A stretch of DNA of 24,670 bases, from IMG/VR virus record IMGVR_UViG_3300032397_000077, positions 1 through 24,670 of that record; one strand, given 5' to 3'. Under the pieces are notes generated by a model. It made no database searches. It worked only from the letters and a program-made list of their open reading frames with translations, and was not told where the DNA came from. Shown in pieces: positions 4,224 to 23,915 of the stretch (position 1 is the first letter of the stretch; the number at the start of each line of letters is the position of its first letter). A program made the position numbers and the translations under genes. The stretch comes from a virus.

Positions 4224-6122
4224 ATGGCTGCCGTAGTAACCCTACTCGGTACTGCGACGTTCACGACGGCGAGCGGGACTAAGACCGTCACCGCTACGCC
4301 CGCCGTCGGCGACCTCATCGTTATCGTCGTCGCTAACTCGGGAAGTACAGCTTCCGTAGCGCCGACCGACAACAACAGCAGCGGTACCTACACTAAGATT
4401 ACCTCCTCCGTAAAGGCGACCTCCGCCGATACGATGGAGATCTACATCCGCACCGCCTTGATAGGTGCGGCGTCTTCTACTGTATTTACGCACGCCCCAG
4501 GAACGACGACCGGGGGTGGTCTCGCCGTCCTGAAGGTGACGGGCATGACCCGGGTGGGCAGCAACGCCTCCCGTCAAAGCGCAATACAGAGCAACCAGGC
4601 TACAACAACCACCCCGACCCCGGTATTCGGCTCCGCAGCGCTTACCGCCAACGCCGTCATTGGCGCGGTGTTCAACGCCTCCAACGTCGCCGCGCTCACC
4701 CCTAGAGGCACCCCCGCCTACACGGAACGATGCGACGTAGGCTACAACACCCCGGCTTCAGGCCTGGAGGTGATGACCATTGACTCCGGCGAGACGGGCA
4801 CGTCTATCGCTTGGGGCAGTACGTCGCCGTCTGCGTTCTGCGACTTGGTTCTAGAACTAGACACTTCTAACAGCTACAGCGTCACGCAAGGCGAGACCGT
4901 CACGGTCACGGACGCGCAGACGGCTACAGCGGTATTCTCTTCTAGCACGAGAGCAGAGACCGTCACCGTCACGGACGCACAAACGGGGCAGGTAGATTTT
5001 TCGACGGTACGTGCAGAGACCGTCACCGTCACGGACAGCCAAGACGCAACGGTTACGACGGGCGTCGTATACAACGTACAGCGGGATGAGACCGTAACGC
5101 TCACGGATGGGCAGACGGCGCAGGCAGACTTCTCGGTAGTTCGGGCTGAAACCGTTACCGTCACGGACGGACAGACGGTGCAGACGGTCTTTTCCGTAGC
5201 ACGGGCTGAAACCGTCACGCTGACAGATGCGCAGACAGCCACTGCGACGCTCTCTGTGCAGCAAGACGAGAGCGTAACGCTCACGGACTCTCAATCTTCT
5301 ATAGTCACGTTTTCAGCATCTGAAGCGGAGACTATCACACTAACAGATGCGCAGACTGGTGTCGCGGTATTCGTCGTTACGCAGGCAGAGACAATCACCG
5401 CCACGGATTCCCAGAGCGCTACAGCGGAATTTTCAGTACAGCGCGACGAGTCCGTTACGCTCACAGATAGCCAAGACGCCAGTGTAACGATCGTAATAGA
5501 TGCCGACGTAGTTGAGCAGGTCACGCTCACAGACTCACAAAGCGCTATAGCGGAGTTCAACGTCACAACGAGTGAGAGCATCACACTCACGGATTCGCAA
5601 GATGCGGGGCTGTACGTCACGGCGGCGGTAGACGAGACCGTAACAGTTACGGATTCGCAGGATGCTGCTATCCACGTACCCGCCACGTACGATGTAGCAG
5701 TCGATGAGACGGTGCTGCTACTGGACAGCCAAGACGCCACCGTAGTCAACATCCCTCAGGGGCGCTCGCAGCTTTCCCGCGCTGACCTGATCGCTATCTA
5801 CGAACGCGAGTGGGAAGCGAAGAAGCCGAAACCTGAGCCTGAAGCCGTGCCCGCTCCCGCACCGCGCAAGCCGAAGGTCCACCGCCTGCCCCCGAAGCCC
5901 GAGGCCGCGCCCAGTATTCTGCCCCCGGTCGAGCAGGAGGAACAGGGTAAACTTCCGGCTGAAAGCCAGGTGACTATCCCTGAGCTGGTCACAGAGATGT
6001 TGAAAGAGCTTCAGATGCCGGCCCCACGACCGGAGTCGAAGGCAGAGGCCAAGCGGAAACGCCGCAGGGCGGAGGAAGAAGAGATCGTGGCGTTCCTAGT
6101 CCAGCAAGAAGAGTTCAGCTAA
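4224..6122 (+). CDS. Repeat-containing virion surface protein / adhesin-like (632 aa)
   Basis: Three parts are visible. Residues 1-215 form a beta-rich domain with the pattern GDLIVIVVANSGS ... TDNNSSGTYTKI ... GMTRVGSNASRQ ... WGSTSPSAF ... LELDTS, which I recognise as a domain frequent in phage and environmental proteins and probably a beta-sandwich. Residues about 224-512 are 14 tandem repeats of roughly 21 residues with the core E-T/S-V/I-T-x-T-D-x-Q. Residues 513-632 are rich in Pro, Lys and Glu, with a short helical segment and a basic-acidic C-terminus (AKRKRRRAEEEE). There is no signal peptide or membrane segment. The start ATG has GAGAGGG at 4212-4218. The architecture (globular tip, beta stalk, charged anchor) suggests a fibre-like virion decoration or receptor-binding protein. 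That is inference; no enzyme motif is seen. Confidence 0.65.
   Translation: MAAVVTLLGTATFTTASGTKTVTATPAVGDLIVIVVANSGSTASVAPTDNNSSGTYTKITSSVKATSADTMEIYIRTALIGAASSTVFTHAPGTTTGGGLAVLKVTGMTRVGSNASRQSAIQSNQATTTTPTPVFGSAALTANAVIGAVFNASNVAALTPRGTPAYTERCDVGYNTPASGLEVMTIDSGETGTSIAWGSTSPSAFCDLVLELDTSNSYSVTQGETVTVTDAQTATAVFSSSTRAETVTVTDAQTGQVDFSTVRAETVTVTDSQDATVTTGVVYNVQRDETVTLTDGQTAQADFSVVRAETVTVTDGQTVQTVFSVARAETVTLTDAQTATATLSVQQDESVTLTDSQSSIVTFSASEAETITLTDAQTGVAVFVVTQAETITATDSQSATAEFSVQRDESVTLTDSQDASVTIVIDADVVEQVTLTDSQSAIAEFNVTTSESITLTDSQDAGLYVTAAVDETVTVTDSQDAAIHVPATYDVAVDETVLLLDSQDATVVNIPQGRSQLSRADLIAIYEREWEAKKPKPEPEAVPAPAPRKPKVHRLPPKPEAAPSILPPVEQEEQGKLPAESQVTIPELVTEMLKELQMPAPRPESKAEAKRKRRRAEEEEIVAFLVQQEEFS
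4893..5759 (+). repeat. 14 tandem coding repeats, core E-T-V-T-x-T-D-x-Q
   Basis: Fourteen units begin with Glu at residues 224 to 495 of the 632-residue protein, spaced on average about 62.5 nt. Unit cores include ETVTVTDAQ, ETVTLTDGQ, ESVTLTDSQ, EQVTLTDSQ and ETVLLLDSQ. Spacers are mostly 11-13 residues and are more variable. The codons for identical residues differ widely between units, so the repeats are conserved at the protein rather than the DNA level. Confidence 0.9.
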
Positions 6123-6792: not shown

Positions 6793-7218
6793 ATGGCCTC
6801 TGATTCTTTCGACCCCGAAGGCGCACAAGCCCTCGCCGACGCTTTCCCCGACGTCGACCCCAACAGCGTACCCCTCGGGGCGCGCATCCTGGTGCAGCTC
6901 CGGCGCACCGCCAACACCACCAAGAGCGGTATCGTTCTCGTCGAAGAGACGAAGGAAACGGTCAAGTGGAACAACCAAGTGGCCAAGGTTGTCTCCATGG
7001 GTCCCCTCGCATTCAAGAACCGCGAGACCATGAAGGATTGGCCCGAGGGCGCGTGGGTGCAGCCCGGCGACTATGTGCGGGTGCCCCGCTGGGGCGGCGA
7101 CCGTATTGAGATCCCCGTGAAGAATGACGCTCCCGTCATCTTCGTCATCTTCTCGGACCACGAGATTATCTCCAAGGTACCCGGCGACCCGTTGACGGTC
7201 CGGACCTACATTCTGTAA
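6793..7218 (+). CDS. GroES-like co-chaperonin (141 aa)
   Basis: Caps the host GroEL cage during folding of substrate proteins, probably the phage capsid protein. Residues 27-36 (PLGARILVQL) match the first GroES strand. TKSGIVLVEE aligns with the GroES mobile loop, including the I-V-L tripeptide that contacts GroEL. GAWVQPGDYVRVPRWGGDRIEI and VIFVIFSDHEIISKV align with the later barrel strands. It is longer than bacterial GroES (about 97 residues) through a 25-residue N-terminal extension, a larger insertion around FKNRETMKDWPEG and a short C-terminal tail. AAGGAG at 6781-6786 precedes the ATG. No GroEL gene is present, so the host chaperonin must be the partner. The position just before scaffold and capsid genes is comparable in role to T4 gp31. 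Confidence 0.85.
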   Translation: MASDSFDPEGAQALADAFPDVDPNSVPLGARILVQLRRTANTTKSGIVLVEETKETVKWNNQVAKVVSMGPLAFKNRETMKDWPEGAWVQPGDYVRVPRWGGDRIEIPVKNDAPVIFVIFSDHEIISKVPGDPLTVRTYIL

Positions 7219-8346: not shown

Positions 8347-8886
8347 ATGGCTACCGACTCCGACACCCGCATTCGCAAAGACACCGCCGCAGAAGTTCGC
8401 GGTTCTCGTTCCGTGACCGCTGACGCCGAGCGTGAGAAAGACGCTTCGGGGATCAGCCCTGAGGAACGTGCACGTCTCCTGCGCGATGAATTCAAGCAAG
8501 AAGCTCTGCCCACCGCACCGAACATCCCTGGCTGGCATGTCTGCTGGCTCGCTAGCAACAACAACTACGACCCCATCCACAAGCGTATGCGCCTCGGGTA
8601 TCAGCCTGTCATGGCTGACGAAGTGCCCTCCATGGCCGGACATCGCATGACGACGGGCGAGTACTCAGGAGTTGTTGCGTGCAATGAAATGCTGCTCTTC
8701 AAGATTCCCCAGGAAGCCTACGAGCAGATCATGCGCGAGTACCACCACGACGCTCCGTTGCGCGAAGAGGAAGGCCTCCGGGCTCAACTCGTGCGCGGCG
8801 AGAAGGACTCCCACGGTAAAGAGCTGGAACAGATTGAAGGCTTCGACGACATCGCTCAACGTCGCAGCGCACCGCAATTCGCCTAG
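8347..8886 (+). CDS. Conserved phage protein of unknown function (179 aa)
   Basis: A 179-residue, mostly soluble protein. The first 50 residues are charged and helical. The core is NIPGWHVCWLASNNNYDPIH followed by KRMRLGYQPVMADEVP and a TGEYSGVVACNEMLLFKIP segment. I recall this pattern from uncharacterised proteins located between scaffold and capsid genes in podovirus-like genomes. The C-terminal half is charged (RAQLVRGEKDSHGKELEQIE). ATAGGAGG at 8334-8341 precedes ATG 8347, and the gene ends in TAG. The location suggests a capsid assembly or minor head role, with no direct evidence in the sequence. Confidence 0.6.
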   Translation: MATDSDTRIRKDTAAEVRGSRSVTADAEREKDASGISPEERARLLRDEFKQEALPTAPNIPGWHVCWLASNNNYDPIHKRMRLGYQPVMADEVPSMAGHRMTTGEYSGVVACNEMLLFKIPQEAYEQIMREYHHDAPLREEEGLRAQLVRGEKDSHGKELEQIEGFDDIAQRRSAPQFA

Positions 8887-11372: not shown

Positions 11373-11690
11373 ATGAGGAGCTCAAGCGTTTCCGTAACGG
11401 GGGTTGCGGCCTCCGCGTGGTTGCCGCTGGACGCAGGGACGGTAGGTACGAATTTCGGGCTCTACCTGACCCCGGGGGCGGGCGCTACGGTCACGGTGCA
11501 AGTGACCCCGGACAACGTGCTGGATGCGTCTGTGACTCCTGTGGCGTTCGCTATCCCAGTAGCGACGCTCGTGGGTGCCACGGTCAACATAGCGGCGGCG
11601 CTGCCTCTCGGGGCTCTCGCTGTGCGCATGAACCAGACCGCCGGGGCCACCACCAGTAGGCTGCAAGTCGTCACTCAGGGCATCCGCTGA
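11373..11690 (+). CDS. Small beta-rich phage protein (105 aa)
   Basis: A 105-residue protein with TVTVQVTPDNVLDASVTPVAF and a C-terminal ALAVRMNQTAGATTSRLQVV. This follows a pattern (v-Q-x-T-x-D-x-x-x-D ... P-x-x-A-x-R-x-N) common in small phage virion proteins, probably a single beta-sandwich. It starts 4 bases after the preceding stop with AGGTG at 11362-11366, and its TGA shares one base with the next ATG. It may be a fibre-base or decoration subunit; no direct evidence. Confidence 0.6.
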   Translation: MRSSSVSVTGVAASAWLPLDAGTVGTNFGLYLTPGAGATVTVQVTPDNVLDASVTPVAFAIPVATLVGATVNIAAALPLGALAVRMNQTAGATTSRLQVVTQGIR

Positions 11691-12676
11691 TGACCACGTC
11701 AGGAACAGTAGGCCGCACCGTAATAGATGCGACTTCGGTAATCGAGCACGCAGCACGACGCTGCGGAGTCCTCGCGACCGCGCTGACCGGGGAAATCCTC
11801 CAGTCGGCGAAAGAGAACCTGTTCCTGATTCTCTCCAATTTCGTCACCAAGGGCATGGAGCTCTGGTGCATAGGCAAGGCCAGCTATCCCACCACGGCGG
11901 GCGCAGCTACGTTGGACTTAGACGTAGGGTGGGTGGACCTGGAAAACGCGCTGCTGCGTACCGTCACCTCCACGCCTGCAGATGTGCTCATTGCGGGCGG
12001 GGCCACATATACCCCTGCAGCAGCTGTATTGATCAGCTCGGCGATCCTAGAGATTGCCGCTGGGACGTACACCTACGTGCTAGAAGGCAGCCCCACCGGG
12101 GTCACCTGGACTCAATACGGCACAAAGACCTTCACCCTCAGCGCGACGGGGCGCGTCTGTATAGATGCGGACGTCTTCGTGACTTTGGGGTTTTGGCGTC
12201 TGCGTGAGACTACGGGGTCCGTAGTTGCGCCGACCGACGCCACGTTCTGCAGCGGGGCGACTGAGATCCCGATGTCTAAGATCGCTCGGGATGACTACGT
12301 GCAGATGCCGAATAAGTCGTTCGCTTCTCGACCGCTTCAGTACTGGTTCGACAAACAAGCTACACAAGCCCGCTTGTGGCTCTGGCCCGTGGCGCCGAAC
12401 TCTACCCAGTACCAGTGTGTTATCTGGGGACACCGGCAGATTCAGGACGTAGGGGCGCTGACCAACACCCTCGACGTGCCCCAGCGCTGGGTAGACGCGG
12501 TGATCAGCGAGCTGGCCACGCGCATGTGTCTCGAGTTGCCCAAGGAGCTGATCCCACAAGGTCGCTACGCAGAACTTCTAACGGCTGCTGCCTCCATCCT
12601 ACGCGACGTGCAAGACGCCGAGATAGATGGAGCCCCCATGCGCCTAGCGCCGAACATTCGCGCCTACACTCGGTAA
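11690..12676 (+). CDS. Head-tail adaptor / tail tubular-like protein with inserted domain (328 aa)
   Basis: The N-terminal helical part (ALTGEILQSAKENLFLILSN ... KGMELWCIGKASYPTTAG) and the C-terminal part (RPLQYWFDKQATQARLWLWP ... VPQRWVDAVISELATRMCLE) match head-completion/adaptor proteins of the P22 gp4 and T7 gp11 kind, which bind under the portal and carry the tail. Between them, residues about 90-182 form a beta-rich insertion (YTYVLEGSPTGVTWTQYGTK ... FWRLRETTG) that resembles a discoidin-like (F5/8 type C) domain in the W-x-x-x-G ... W-R-l-R pattern. The insertion is unusual for the core family and might bind carbohydrate; that is inference. It starts with a 1-base overlap (TGATG) and ends 5 bases before the next gene. 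Confidence 0.65.
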   Translation: MTTSGTVGRTVIDATSVIEHAARRCGVLATALTGEILQSAKENLFLILSNFVTKGMELWCIGKASYPTTAGAATLDLDVGWVDLENALLRTVTSTPADVLIAGGATYTPAAAVLISSAILEIAAGTYTYVLEGSPTGVTWTQYGTKTFTLSATGRVCIDADVFVTLGFWRLRETTGSVVAPTDATFCSGATEIPMSKIARDDYVQMPNKSFASRPLQYWFDKQATQARLWLWPVAPNSTQYQCVIWGHRQIQDVGALTNTLDVPQRWVDAVISELATRMCLELPKELIPQGRYAELLTAAASILRDVQDAEIDGAPMRLAPNIRAYTR

Positions 12677-12681
12677 GCAGC

Positions 12682-12906
12682 ATGAGCCGCTACCTAGACA
12701 CCCGAGGCCTCAGTTCGGTAGCGATCGGCGTATGTGACCGCTGTAAGCTCAAGTACAGCATTACGGAACTCATGGCAGACGGCAACGCCCCCGGATTGCG
12801 CGTCTGCGTGGACTGCCGCGACGTGCTGGATCCGTACCGACTGCCCGCGAGGAAGTCGGAAAACATCGTGTTGCGCTACCCGCGCCCTGACGAGCCGCTA
12901 TCATGA
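12682..12906 (+). CDS. Small zinc-ribbon protein (74 aa)
   Basis: Starts MSRYLDTRGLSSVAIGVCDR. It has two Cys pairs, C-D-R-C and C-V-D-C, 20 residues apart, giving a zinc ribbon (CxxC-x20-CxxC). The sequence VCDRCKLKYSITELMADGN resembles small zinc-binding phage proteins seen among tail genes. I chose ATG 12682 because the same frame is open far upstream only as a shadow of the preceding gene. The TGA overlaps the fibre start (ATGA). The ribosome site is weak, so translation may depend on coupling. Function is unknown; it could be an assembly factor. Confidence 0.6.
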   Translation: MSRYLDTRGLSSVAIGVCDRCKLKYSITELMADGNAPGLRVCVDCRDVLDPYRLPARKSENIVLRYPRPDEPLS

Positions 12907-13775
12907 CTTCTTTTGTCAACATTTTTGGCGGCTCTACGATACAGGCTTCTCAGGTCGCCTACCGAGCAGTCGCGCTCGACACTGTTCCCGTACAACTGGA
13001 GTGGCCTAGCGCTTCGGTTACTGCAACTGATGTTGCAGCGCGAACCATGGACGTGACGTCTAGCATGGGCGGGGGCATCATCATGCCCGCTGCGGATGCG
13101 GCCAGTGTGGGGTATGACTTCCTGATCTCTAATGTGGGGGCCAACGCCTTCACGGTGCAGGACTTCGACCTCAACGCGATAGCTACCGTCGCGGTAGGGG
13201 AAGTCAAGTACCTCCAAATCACGGACAACTCTACCGAAGCGGGAACGTGGCGGGTGATATTATTCGGCTCAGTAGTGAATGCCGCAGATGCAGCTTCGCT
13301 GGCAGGGTCGGGGTTGACCGTTATCGGGTCTATGCTGGCGGCTTCTGAACCTGTACATGTTCTTAGTGCAGGGGTGACGATAGTCGAGGCCGACCGGGCG
13401 CAGGTTCTAGTTTGGGACAGCGGGACGGGAACCTACACGCTCCCGCCTGCCGCAGGGTTAGGAGACGGATTCTACTTCGACGTGCGCAATCAAGGCACAG
13501 GGGCTCTCGCTATAGTTGCGGATGGGGCCGAGACCATTGACGACGCCTCTACAATTACGCTTCAGCCCGCGGACTCTGCTCGAGTACACTGCTCAGGTGC
13601 GGGGTGGCATACGGTGGGACGTGGACGTTCGACGCAGTTTAACTTTTCTCTTCTTGTCAAGAATATCACAGGCGGCACAGTCACGCTGACCCCTACGGAA
13701 GCTGCGAACACTGTGCAGCGCTACACAGGCGTGCTCGTCAGCAATGCGAACGTCGTATTCCCTCCGGTAGTGTAG
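12903..13775 (+). CDS. Tail fibre/appendage protein, N-terminal part up to in-frame TAG (290 aa)
   Basis: The N-terminal region (NIFGGSTIQASQVAYRAVAL, then LQITDNSTEAGTWRVILFG) follows the conserved base domain of podovirus tail appendages that begin F-G-G-S-T-I-x-x-S-Q-V-x-Y. Two or more beta-repeat domains follow (VWDSGTGTYTLPPAAG; SARVHCSGAGWHTVGRGR). The last domain starts NTVQRYTGVLVSNANVVFP and is cut by TAG at 13773-13775. The same frame then continues with 254 more residues that complete this domain and a fibre C-terminus, so 290 residues is either a truncated form or an interruption. The ATG overlaps the upstream stop (ATGA). Codons here look less GC-biased than in the capsid module. 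Confidence 0.75.
   Translation: MTSFVNIFGGSTIQASQVAYRAVALDTVPVQLEWPSASVTATDVAARTMDVTSSMGGGIIMPAADAASVGYDFLISNVGANAFTVQDFDLNAIATVAVGEVKYLQITDNSTEAGTWRVILFGSVVNAADAASLAGSGLTVIGSMLAASEPVHVLSAGVTIVEADRAQVLVWDSGTGTYTLPPAAGLGDGFYFDVRNQGTGALAIVADGAETIDDASTITLQPADSARVHCSGAGWHTVGRGRSTQFNFSLLVKNITGGTVTLTPTEAANTVQRYTGVLVSNANVVFPPVV
13773..13775 (+). other. In-frame amber codon interrupting the fibre gene
   Basis: TAG sits between GTG and GTT codons inside a domain whose pattern (VVFPPVV / VYYVSNLTSGAHTVTFKT ... VAQGTNAVLFCDGTNVY) is continuous on both sides. The nearest downstream start candidate, GTG 13860, has no ribosome site and lies inside the same domain. Three other genes here end in TAG (734, 8884, 15518), so general TAG recoding is unlikely. 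Confidence 0.8.
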
Positions 13776-14537
13776 GTTTACTACGTTAGCAATCTGACTT
13801 CTGGGGCACATACTGTAACTTTCAAGACTGCTGCGGGGGGAACTCCGGACGTATTCGCAGTGGCGCAAGGAACGAACGCTGTTCTATTCTGCGATGGAAC
13901 AAACGTCTACAACGCTACGACGACCAGCTTAGGCACCACGAACGTACTCACTCTGCAAGCAGGCACAGTGGGGGCGCCTCCGCTAAACTTTGCGGGGGAT
14001 CTAACTACTGGGGTGTACCAGCCCGCTGCTGGGCAGATTGGGTTTACCTCTGTAGGGTCCAATATTCTTACCCTCACAGGCGCTGCCGCCACCTTCGCCG
14101 TACAGCCTAAATACGCCGTAGCCCCCTCGGTAGCCGCCGACCTAGCAAACAAAGCATACGTGGACAGCGTGGTCCCGGGCGGAGCCGGAGCAGGTACGGT
14201 CGCGCAGAACCCCGTAGACATCACAGCGAGCCGGGCGCTCGTGGCTGCGGATTTCGGGACGGGGGTTATGCGTATCAACGCGGCGGGCGTGGTCGCTATC
14301 ACGGTGCCCACCGTAGCGGCGATGAGTCTGCCGGTCACGGCGGGTAAGCTGCGCACTATTGCCTTCGAATGCTACGGGGCAGGGATTCCGACATTCGCGG
14401 GAGCCACCTCCTCCACGTCTATCAATGGTCAGGCGGGCCCCACGACGAAGACCCCTATAGGAGGCGCTCCCGTACGTTATCAATTCGTGGTGTTGACTCA
14501 GCTCGCGCCCAGCTCTGACGCTTGGAGTCTCGTGTGA
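13776..14537 (+). CDS. Tail fibre/appendage protein, C-terminal continuation after amber (about 253 aa)
   Basis: This is the same frame as 12903-13775. It begins VYYVSNLTSGAHTVTFKTAA and completes the split domain with AVAQGTNAVLFCDGTNVY. Then comes LNFAGDLTTGVYQPAAGQIG and SNILTLTGAAATFAVQP, the common 'D-x-x-T-G-i-y ... G' fibre motif, and DLANKAYVDSVVPGG, a trimerisation-type segment in fibres. A beta-rich C-terminal domain ends at TGA 14537. A free-standing gene would have to start at GTG 13860, without ribosome site and without the domain's first strands, so I treat it as the readthrough extension or a broken half. The full-length fused protein would be 544 residues. Confidence 0.7.
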   Translation, partial: VYYVSNLTSGAHTVTFKTAAGGTPDVFAVAQGTNAVLFCDGTNVYNATTTSLGTTNVLTLQAGTVGAPPLNFAGDLTTGVYQPAAGQIGFTSVGSNILTLTGAAATFAVQPKYAVAPSVAADLANKAYVDSVVPGGAGAGTVAQNPVDITASRALVAADFGTGVMRINAAGVVAITVPTVAAMSLPVTAGKLRTIAFECYGAGIPTFAGATSSTSINGQAGPTTKTPIGGAPVRYQFVVLTQLAPSSDAWSLV

Positions 14538-15520
14538 GTTGGACAAAGAACGGACTGACAGGGTCCGTTCTGGCCCTCGGGGCTAACTCAGCCCAAGTCC
14601 TGATGCCGTCGGGGAATCCTACGGGACGTAATATCGTCATCGTACAACTCACGACTAAGCATCCTTCGTATCAACCTCTCGTTAGCTTGACACACGACTT
14701 CGGCGGCAGCCCTGGCGGTACGTTCACCCACGTCAACACACAGAACCTGACGGACCCAGACGGGCAACTCATCCTTCAGTATCTATACTGGACGGAGATA
14801 TCAGGTAGCGCAGGACACCAGATAGACGCAACGTTCGGGGCTTTGATCGATGACATAGCAATGTCGGTAGTGTGCTATGAATGCGGTAGTGACGGGTACA
14901 TAGCAGAAGAAAACATTGGGCTCGACTACAGGACGACGTCTTCTATTCCTTGTGCCTTATTGACTACTCCAGCTAGGACGGACGGTATATCTATCGCCGT
15001 CGACTGGTACCGGGGCACAGTGACCAACGCCGCGACGGCGTCCTGGGCGTTGACCACCTCGATGGCCCCCGACTCGCCGCAAAAGGCAGTCGCGCAGCAA
15101 CGGATGACGGTCGCGGGGACCAACGGGGCTTCGAGTCTCGCGCTCACGGATCCTACGTCTAAGTGGATGTCGCAGTGGATGATGTTCGCGCACTACGTGC
15201 CCCCCATCATTACCTCTAACCCCTCCATCATAGGCACTCCTACCGTCGGAGTGGCGACAACGTACACGCCCAGCACAGCGAGCTCCGGGTCTATCACTTC
15301 GCGTACCTGGTATGTGGACGGCACGCCGGTAGGAACGGGCTCGACGTACACTCCTGTTATTGGCGACTCAGGCAAGACTCTCGTTATCACTGAAGTGTGG
15401 ACCAACGCGGACGGGTCCACCTCCGCCAGCAGTCCGGGTAAGGTAATAAGCTCTACCCCTGTACCGACGGTGGGCAACGCCGCCTGGTTCAACTACCTGC
15501 AGGCGGCAGGATCTATCTAG
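14534..15520 (+). CDS. Adhesin-like virion protein with Ig-like domain (328 aa)
   Basis: The start GTG 14534 overlaps the preceding TGA (GTGA) and has GGAG at 14524-14527; a TTG 12 bases upstream is less likely. Residues 1-225 are a beta-rich domain (SYQPLVSLTHDFGGSPGGTF, DGQLILQYLYWTEISGSAGH). Its overall layout recalls the N-terminal domain of the 632-residue repeat protein, but I cannot show homology by eye. Residues about 226-310 (PPIITSNPSIIGTPTVGVAT, then SITSRTWYVDGTPVGTGSTY) form an Ig-like/bacterial-Ig domain with the W-Y-v-d-G pattern. The C-terminal WFNYLQAAGSI is short. It probably belongs to the host-contact set with the fibre. No signal peptide. Confidence 0.65.
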   Translation: MSWTKNGLTGSVLALGANSAQVLMPSGNPTGRNIVIVQLTTKHPSYQPLVSLTHDFGGSPGGTFTHVNTQNLTDPDGQLILQYLYWTEISGSAGHQIDATFGALIDDIAMSVVCYECGSDGYIAEENIGLDYRTTSSIPCALLTTPARTDGISIAVDWYRGTVTNAATASWALTTSMAPDSPQKAVAQQRMTVAGTNGASSLALTDPTSKWMSQWMMFAHYVPPIITSNPSIIGTPTVGVATTYTPSTASSGSITSRTWYVDGTPVGTGSTYTPVIGDSGKTLVITEVWTNADGSTSASSPGKVISSTPVPTVGNAAWFNYLQAAGSI

Positions 15521-15532
15521 CAAGGAACAGAC

Positions 15533-16162
15533 GTGGCAACGCAGACCTACACTTCCCTCTTAGCAGACTGCCTGCTCTATTCTGAGCGTGTGGACGACGC
15601 CGTCTTACTGTCGCAGCTACCTACTTTGGTCATGCTCGCGGAGAATCGTGTCGCTACGGATATGAAGACCGAGGGTTCGGAGCTCGTGGTTACGGGGGTG
15701 CTGACGAGCAATTCGCCTGTCTTAGACAAGCCTACCTACTGGCGCGACACGGTCAGCCTACAGCTAACCCGTCCGAGCGATGGGACGCGGTTCAACGTGC
15801 TGCCCCGGGCGTACGAGTATTGCGTCGGGTTCTGGCCTGATCGTGAGCAGGTAAGAGAGCCGAGGTTCTATGCAGACTACGACTTCGACCACTTCTTCCT
15901 CGCCCCTACGCCCGACGCGGCGTACGAATTCGAACTGAAGTATCACGCGCGACGCGACCCCCTGAGTCCCGCGCACCAGACAAACTGGATGACGCTCAAT
16001 GCGCCGCAGCTTCTCTTCTACGCTACGATGCTCGAAGTATCTACGTTCCTCAAGAACGATGACAAGATCACCGTTTGGGGCAACCTCTATCGCGACTCAA
16101 TCATGGGGTTGAGCAAGGAAGATTCAGGGCGTCGATCTGATGCAACCACGGTGCCGAAGTGA
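15533..16162 (+). CDS. Phage adaptor/head-tail connector protein (209 aa)
   Basis: A helical-beta protein with TYTSLLADCLLYSERVDDAV, LPTLVMLAENRVATDMKTEG, YEYCVGFWPDREQVREPRFY and APQLLFYATMLEVSTFLKND. This is the pattern of adaptor proteins in podoviruses such as SU10 and relatives, which join the portal to the tail nozzle. GTG 15533 is the start, with AAGGAA at 15522-15527 inside the gap after the TAG of the preceding gene. It ends with the GTGA overlap into the nozzle gene, which fits coordinated synthesis. The 209-residue length is normal for the family. Confidence 0.75.
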   Translation: MATQTYTSLLADCLLYSERVDDAVLLSQLPTLVMLAENRVATDMKTEGSELVVTGVLTSNSPVLDKPTYWRDTVSLQLTRPSDGTRFNVLPRAYEYCVGFWPDREQVREPRFYADYDFDHFFLAPTPDAAYEFELKYHARRDPLSPAHQTNWMTLNAPQLLFYATMLEVSTFLKNDDKITVWGNLYRDSIMGLSKEDSGRRSDATTVPK

Positions 16163-21230: not shown

Positions 21231-22307
21231 ATGGCGCTCGAATTCTTAACCGATGGGTCGCCTGCGACCAAGAATGCGAACCAGGCTACGCAGAGCACTC
21301 TGCCGGACTGGTACAATTCGTACATACAGGGTGTGGCGAGCAAGGCGACCGATATCGCTGCGCAGCCCTATGTGAACTACCCTGGGCAGCAGGTCGCGGA
21401 CTTCAACGACACCCAGCGCAACGCCTTCGACCTGGTGGACCAGAACGTCGGCAACTACGCTCCGTATATCGACTCCGCGAGCTCGGCATTCGGGGCCTCT
21501 AGCGGGTACGGGTCCGGGGCGGTGGGCGCTGCGGGGGGCAATCCCTCCGGGGCGATGGGCCAGGCGGCGATGAATGCCGTAGCGGGGCCCGCACAGAGCT
21601 GGGTCGACCCGGGCACATTTCAGAAGTACATGAGCCCCTATACGTCGAGCGTCGTCGACGAGATAGGTCGGCTAGGGAACCAGAACTTACTGCAGAATAT
21701 CATCCCGCAGACCCAGGCCAACTTCGTCGGCTCGGGGCAGTTCGGTTCGACGCGCAACGCACAAATCCTAGGCCAGAACGTCCGGGACACTCAGAGCAAT
21801 ATCTCCGGTCTGCAGTCGAACGCACTTCAGTCGGGCTACAACACGGCGGCGAACATCTTCGGGGCAGACGCCAACCGTGCGCAGCAGCAGGGCTCACTGC
21901 AAGCGAACGCCGCTATCGGGGCTGGAGGGCTGGCGAATACTGCGGCTTCGAACGCGGTGCAGGCTAACCTCGGGGCCGGGCAACTCGCAAACCAAGCGGG
22001 CACGGGTATGAGCGCCCTGGCGCAGATGCGGCAGGCCCTGGGCATGAACGACGTGACGGCTCTGGGTGCGGCGGGTGGGCAGCAACAGGCCCTGGAACAG
22101 TCCGCGTACGACAAGTCTGTCGCCAACTTCGACGCGCAACGCAACTGGGACTGGACCCAGCTGGGCAAGGTGCAGTCCGCCGTCAACGGCGTGCAGCTCC
22201 CCACCGGACAGACCGCGTCCACCAGCGCTACCTCTGCCCCCGCAGGTACCAGCCCGTTGCAGTGGCTCACTGCGATCGGCGGGCTCTACAAGGCAATCAA
22301 CCCGTAA
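21231..22307 (+). CDS. Internal virion/ejection protein, small (358 aa)
   Basis: An Ala/Gln/Asn/Gly-rich protein. The central part YMSPYTSSVVDEIGRLGNQN (about 134-153) with NFVGSGQFGSTRNAQILGQN following matches a conserved core of a phage virion protein family (S-P-Y-T ... V-D-E-I ... G-Q-x-G-S-T-R). Much of the rest is low-complexity helix (ALAQMRQALGMNDVTALGAA). The C-terminus WLTAIGGLYKAINP is short and hydrophobic. GGAGG at 21218-21222 precedes ATG 21231. It is the second of four consecutive ejection-type genes. The role is inferred from family pattern and position. Confidence 0.65.
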   Translation: MALEFLTDGSPATKNANQATQSTLPDWYNSYIQGVASKATDIAAQPYVNYPGQQVADFNDTQRNAFDLVDQNVGNYAPYIDSASSAFGASSGYGSGAVGAAGGNPSGAMGQAAMNAVAGPAQSWVDPGTFQKYMSPYTSSVVDEIGRLGNQNLLQNIIPQTQANFVGSGQFGSTRNAQILGQNVRDTQSNISGLQSNALQSGYNTAANIFGADANRAQQQGSLQANAAIGAGGLANTAASNAVQANLGAGQLANQAGTGMSALAQMRQALGMNDVTALGAAGGQQQALEQSAYDKSVANFDAQRNWDWTQLGKVQSAVNGVQLPTGQTASTSATSAPAGTSPLQWLTAIGGLYKAINP

Positions 22308-22316
22308 GGTTCCGTC

Positions 22317-23915
22317 ATGGCCGAAGACACCGAAGACACAGGCCCGGGCATCGGGTACGGTGGGCTGAGTTCTATGCGCCTCGCGGGCGCGGACCAGCTC
22401 GACCAACTCGCCAACCAGCCTATAGTCGACCCCTCCACCAAGTGGCTCAAGTTCGCCGCAGGGGCCCTGGATCCGTCGGCGGGCGGCAAGTTCGGCAACG
22501 CGATGGGCAACGCCGTAGGGGCGCTGGCGGGGCAGCAGAACGTAGAGGCAGAGCTCCGCGCTAAGTACCTGCCCATCGTCGCACAGGCGCTGCTCATGCG
22601 GCAGCAGCAGGCGATCTCTATCCAGCAGCATCAACAGAAGCTGCTAGGCGACTGGGACGCCGCGCTGACGGGGCAGCTGACAGGGTTGCTGCGCAAACCC
22701 AGCTTTACAACGGAAGACGTACAACGCACTATCGGAGGGGTGGTGCGTCTGGGGCAGGTACATCCTGCGTTTGCGCTCCAATACTGGCAGAATATGCCGA
22801 AGGATAGCCCGGAGGAGATGCGCGCGTACATCATGAGCAAGGCCATAGGCGGCATGGGTAGCAACGAGCGCGTCGGCGCTGTCTCGCCGAAGGTCGAGCT
22901 GAAGAACCCGAACGAGGGCTTCACCCCGGCGAACATTAACCCCAACGCTCCGCAGCCCGTGGGTCCGATGAAGGGTGGCATACCTCCTACTCTCACGCCG
23001 AAGGACCGACTGCCGGTAGGGGTAGACACCCCGCAGGGCCCGATGGTACGCGATCCGGTAGAGGGTACCGCTGCGTTTGTCGGCAGCCCGGGGGCACAGG
23101 CGCTGTCGCAAGGCGCCACGCGTGGGTTACTGCCCGAGCCGCTCGTGGGAGCGCCCGGTGGCGCCCCGGGCCAGCCTACCCCACAGGTGCCAATGCCGGT
23201 TACGCCGCCCCCGTCAGTTTCGGCACAGCAAAACCTAGCGAGGAACGAAGCCGACAAGGGCGCGGGCACTTCGTTCTCTAAGTACGAAGATGCGTTGAAC
23301 GCAGAGGTGAGTACGATGAGCGACTTGGTATTCCGTACCAAGCAGCTGCAGGAGTACGCAAAAGCCTTCCGTACCGGCGCCACCGGTGATATCCGTTCTA
23401 AGGGCGCTGCGTTCGCTAAGGACGTGGCTCTCAGCCTGGGCGCGTCGCAGCAGTACGCAGATAAACTCGGTAACGGCATCGCGGGTGGCGACGTAGCCTC
23501 CGCGCAGGCGTTCCATAAGCTGGCCGTGCAAAGTGCGATGCAGTCCCTCAAGGCCGCCGCAGGCCCGGGTCAGCGGTTTACGCAAGCCGAATTCCAAAAG
23601 TTCCAAGACGCCAACCTCAACCTCGATATGGATCCGAGGGCGATGGAGACGATCTCCAACTTTGTCATGGACCAAGCTCGCAAGGTCTCTGCGGAGCAGG
23701 AGTTCGTCGCCAAGGCCCGCGCCGCCAACATGCCTATCCCGCAGATCCGAGTTGAGTGGGAACGTGAAAAGGCGAAGATCAACGAGAACCAGCCCGTCAA
23801 GATAGGAAACGTGCTGAAGGGTACTATCGGACCGTCCAGTCGGACTCGCATTGGAACTGACGTCGACGGGCGAAAGATGAAACTCAACGCAGCAGGTCAG
23901 TGGGAGTATGAATAA
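22317..23915 (+). CDS. Internal virion/ejection protein (532 aa)
   Basis: Starts with a charged N-terminus (MAEDTEDTGPGIGYGGLSSM). A helical Gln-rich region follows (KYLPIVAQALLMRQQQAISI), then a Pro/Gly-rich linker (about 195-300), and a helical C-terminal half with GQRFTQAEFQKFQDANLNLD, a segment found in phage internal proteins. The end KINENQPVKIGNVLKGTIGP and DVDGRKMKLNAAGQWEYE look like a small compact tail. AAGG at 22306-22309 precedes ATG 22317, and the TAA shares one base with the next ATG. No catalytic motif seen. Confidence 0.6.
   Translation: MAEDTEDTGPGIGYGGLSSMRLAGADQLDQLANQPIVDPSTKWLKFAAGALDPSAGGKFGNAMGNAVGALAGQQNVEAELRAKYLPIVAQALLMRQQQAISIQQHQQKLLGDWDAALTGQLTGLLRKPSFTTEDVQRTIGGVVRLGQVHPAFALQYWQNMPKDSPEEMRAYIMSKAIGGMGSNERVGAVSPKVELKNPNEGFTPANINPNAPQPVGPMKGGIPPTLTPKDRLPVGVDTPQGPMVRDPVEGTAAFVGSPGAQALSQGATRGLLPEPLVGAPGGAPGQPTPQVPMPVTPPPSVSAQQNLARNEADKGAGTSFSKYEDALNAEVSTMSDLVFRTKQLQEYAKAFRTGATGDIRSKGAAFAKDVALSLGASQQYADKLGNGIAGGDVASAQAFHKLAVQSAMQSLKAAAGPGQRFTQAEFQKFQDANLNLDMDPRAMETISNFVMDQARKVSAEQEFVAKARAANMPIPQIRVEWEREKAKINENQPVKIGNVLKGTIGPSSRTRIGTDVDGRKMKLNAAGQWEYE

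Follow-up and report, generated by a model that had tools for sequence, protein, structure and literature searches.

A lone in-frame TAG codon in the tail-fibre-like gene of an uncultured phage: a probable single-base nonsense change

Introduction

Tail genes broken in nature by the change of one base are already known in bacteriophages. The side tail fibre gene (stf) of lambda PaPa carries a frameshift (Hendrix and Duda, 1992, as cited in PMC4929510 and PMC10695390), and gene 29 of Gordonia phage SoilAssassin is a natural single-base break of a tail gene when compared with phage Attis (PMC4929510). Here we describe an interruption of this type in a virus sequence of 24,670 bases, IMG/VR record IMGVR_UViG_3300032397_000077, which is linear, uncultured and metagenomic; the whole stretch is called the window below. 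A tail-fibre-like gene at 12903..14537 (+ strand) occupies one frame that is interrupted by a TAG codon. We conclude that this TAG is very probably a nonsense change of one base, whether genuine or an artefact, in a normally one-piece tail-fibre gene, and that it belongs to this record only.

The resemblance to lambda PaPa is that a fibre gene intact in related phages has been broken by a change of one base, and both halves persist as adjoining frames. The difference is that PaPa has a frameshift, is a cultured laboratory strain and has a known large-plaque phenotype, whereas here a nonsense codon is found in an uncultured contig. SoilAssassin is similar in the way the ancestral state was approached, the intact form having been taken as the parent since the full sequence is retained in distant phages. 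It differs in that two isolates, high coverage and a plaque difference were available, whereas the present case is one record and its consensus sequence alone.

Stop codons within the open frames of virion proteins also occur where they are read through. In phage Q-beta, where readthrough is established, a UGA ends the short product, which is the complete coat protein. The Q-beta A1 protein is like the present gene in having a stop inside the open frame, but here the stop is private to the record and splits a domain. Phages that use code 15 (TAG as Gln) have TAG where their relatives have glutamine, a usage that has been validated experimentally (PMC9523058; PMC11210395), and about half of them have a Sup-CTA tRNA in phage or host (PMC11210395). 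The window has TAG at a glutamine position as well, but only one, TAG still terminates other genes, and a suppressor tRNA was not seen.

The interrupted gene and its homologues

The frame starts with ATG at 12903, meets TAG at 13773-13775 and ends with TGA at 14535-14537, with no further stop among its 545 codons, as an earlier note on this DNA had stated. The TAG separates an N part of 290 residues from a C part of 253 residues, and the frame is open for all 253 codons downstream. Matches by tblastn are continuous from fibre residue 1 to about 390 with no gap at the TAG, and a match to phrog_12796 (tail fiber protein; E=1e-5) covers residues 254-443, across the stop. Because homology is present on both sides, the frame beyond the TAG is real coding sequence, and a chance long open frame is excluded. 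The G+C content by codon position is alike in the two parts, 0.61/0.57/0.63 in the C part and 0.62/0.51/0.61 in the N part.

Membership in the fibre family is indicated by both sequence and position. At the protein level the N-terminal and middle domains match Caulobacter phages GB2A, RW, RLK and KcrB (35% identity over residues 1-338) and MW202545 (43% over residues 1-381); the homologue is annotated as tail fiber protein in GB2A and as tail protein in MW202545. The gene lies in a virion-structure operon, close to the SU10-type adaptor and stabilization-type proteins. Fibre homologues were also found in about 80 IMG/VR loci; the best 80 of 500 matches were kept, a selection that may favour whole genes. 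The search patterns lay at about residues 107-116 and 189-198, N-terminal to the TAG, so a truncated relative could have turned up.

Homologues carry a sense codon where this record has TAG. The gene passes the site in one frame in all 97 homologous loci, or 84 once identical proteins are merged, always with a sense codon and never with a stop. The aligned codon in the 84 non-redundant homologues is CAG in 47, CAA in 17, AAC in 8, AAT in 4, GCG and AAA in 2 each, and ACC, GCC, TCT and AAG in 1 each, although the distant rows L002, L003, L034, L036 and L128 are aligned less securely. Glutamine is thus the residue at the site in 64 of the 84, followed by Asn (12), Ala (3), Lys (3), Thr (1) and Ser (1). 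The two syntenic loci, L008 and L030, have CAG there with similar flanks. Over core residues 61-373 no clear homologue has a stop; L002 was flagged, but its clear match there covers only residues 223-337. Since all 84 have a sense codon, the TAG is private to the record, and it is one C-to-T step from CAG, the commonest homologue codon. Phage records searched at the DNA level yielded no match, and an exact pattern across the site gave none among viral contigs, hence no near-identical sister record was found there. The whole fibre protein had no relatives in the genome contigs collection.

The stop falls inside a predicted domain. An AlphaFold2 model was built from a 35-sequence alignment, with two phage-record rows left out, and it has confident beta domains to about residue 400 and low confidence past that. 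One beta domain spans residues about 247-340 (approximately 13641..13922, + strand), with block pLDDT 86-95 in residues 251-310 and edges marked by low-confidence joints at residues 244-246 and 341-346. Residue 291, the TAG, is predicted to stand at the start of a strand (290-301) within it. NANVVFPPVV to the left of the stop and VYYVSNLTSG to the right, which the earlier note had taken as one unit, indeed belong to the same domain in the model. The beta domain is kept even in the many homologous frames that reach no more than about 402-430 residues. Because short homologues keep it, a 290-residue product would be without half of a core domain, which is more than an optional tip. A sequence search of solved structures gave nothing, and a fold search gave weak matches only; five were below E=0.001, and two of these are phage spikes.

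Origin and consequences of the TAG codon

One C-to-T transition from CAG would create the TAG, and a single step suffices because relatives mostly carry a glutamine codon there. Translation would then end after 290 residues, in the middle of the beta domain, leaving out the remainder of the domain together with the variable C-terminal tip, except for traces through natural misreading of UAG. The sampled phage would be likely to have virions whose fibre is defective or altered, presumably with loss of fibre function. The change appears to be recent, as the frame beyond the TAG stays open to its end and retains its similarity to relatives. The next gene, at 14534..15520 (+ strand), has a GTG start that overlaps the fibre TGA, so its translation may be coupled to that of the fibre, and early fibre termination might lower it.

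Some points weigh against a nonsense mutation in this gene. Identity to the nearest homologues is only 40-50%, and the codon ancestral in the phage's own lineage is therefore deduced from relatives and was not observed. The record is a fragment, and a suppressor tRNA may be present elsewhere in the phage or in its host. From consensus sequence alone, a mutation, a minority variant and a consensus error are inseparable.

The last point bears on a narrower form of the same explanation, in which the fibre gene is intact and the TAG arose in sequencing or assembly, from damage, or from a minority allele that entered the consensus. The base would then have no outcome for the phage. The record is a metagenomic virus contig, the deduced change is a single transition, and the module shows no other broken gene, all of which agree with an error. 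The sequence itself gives no sign of one, and consensus errors in metagenomes are rare per base. We consider this form possible but less likely than not. Should the mutation prove genuine and be widespread in the phage population, it would rank with lambda PaPa or SoilAssassin as a natural fibre-loss variant.

The earlier note had set two readings side by side. In one, the fibre is broken by a nonsense mutation of recent date or by an error in sequencing; in the other, readthrough or a suppressor operates a switch that would give a short fibre of 290 residues and a long one of 544, as with Q-beta coat and A1. The first agrees with our results; the second finds no support in them and is very unlikely. 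The open and conserved frame beyond the TAG is compatible with a switch, and glutamine tRNA can misread UAG, which would insert the residue found in relatives. However, the stop is in none of the 84 non-redundant homologues, and the short form would end within a predicted domain, unlike the complete Q-beta coat protein. No recoding signal was found, and a structured readthrough signal was rejected: predicted RNA folding 3' of the TAG is no better than that of shuffled sequence (z=0.13), such structure being present in some known cases and not all. An amber-suppressor tRNA, which the earlier note had thought worth seeking, was found neither in the window, which covers part of this phage's genome, nor in 15 related records. 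The window and 13 related IMG/VR records gave no tRNA of any kind, none of the six ordinary tRNAs of MW202545 has an amber anticodon, and GB2A has one below-cut-off match only, not called by ARAGORN. We also think it quite unlikely that the host of the sampled phage has an amber suppressor, or that natural misreading of TAG yields enough full fibre, so that fibre expression would be host-dependent. The case is mostly of cautionary value: homologues should be consulted before a single internal stop in one phage contig from a metagenome is put forward as a readthrough switch.

Some tail fibres are divided into subunits, and on that ground the locus could contain two genes, one for a fibre base of 290 residues and one for a C-terminal protein with its own start. 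This is highly improbable. Homologues are all in one piece across the site, none ending there with a separate C-terminal gene, and the break is inside the predicted domain. The first usual start 3' of the TAG is GTG at 13860, which has no well-placed ribosome site, so the earlier claim that no downstream start has one holds. Searched alone among viral contigs, the last 253 residues matched no relatives, and no separate gene related to the C part was seen there. The split gene was rejected.

The genetic code of the window is also ordinary in its use of TAG. Among 22 gene ends there are 9 TAA, 9 TGA and 4 TAG, with the interrupted fibre included. The other TAG-ended genes are 2-736, 8347-8886 and 14534-15520, and the claim that TAG is not globally recoded is borne out by them. 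The TAG of 8347-8886 stands where 7 of 17 homologues also come to an end, and that of 2-736 adjoins the portal start, whose ribosome site overlaps it. A TAG at a conserved glutamine position is a typical mark of recoding, but with one such TAG against 282 CAG and 134 CAA codons intact, TAG in use as a terminator, coding density of 96% under table 11 and no suppressor tRNA in the window or related records, the signature of code 15 (many such TAGs, and TAG avoided as a terminator) is absent, and code 15 is rejected within the window as extremely improbable.

Genomic context

Judged from sequence, the phage is a relative of Caulobacter phages RW/GB2A and of MW202545; the window comprises its structural module and is probably a fragment of a larger genome. 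The virion-structure module is coded on one strand and includes portal, GroES-like co-chaperonin, major head protein, SU10-type adaptor, virion structural protein and DNA ejection protein genes. Gene order is conserved with relatives over portal, GroES, head protein and g13 (11690-12676), and in L008 and L030 the fibre follows shortly after g13, syntenic with the window. The SU10-type adaptor gene (15533..16162, + strand; Pfam PF24175, E=1.3e-18) is a marker of virion-structure context. Over 12903-16162 the fibre is upstream of the adaptor; in L001, L032 and L033 it is directly downstream of it. No homologue was detected for the gene between them (14534-15520).

No second fibre copy able to substitute for the interrupted gene was found within the window. 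L008 has a second partial copy of the fibre N-terminal region (residues 29-118) at 22082-22357, shortly after its fibre gene.

Other genes of the module have features of their own. The GroES-like co-chaperonin gene (6793-7218; phrog_3188, E=1.9e-10) lies in the head module and is kept in most relatives covering that stretch. A protein of 632 residues (4224-6122) has about a dozen imperfect ETVTVTDAQTATAVFSV-type repeats and a charged, proline-rich C-terminus; PHROGs gave no family match for it. The frame at 2-736 is the 3' end of a protein whose relatives lie in frames of 771-1722 codons, with C-termini that are variable and longer.
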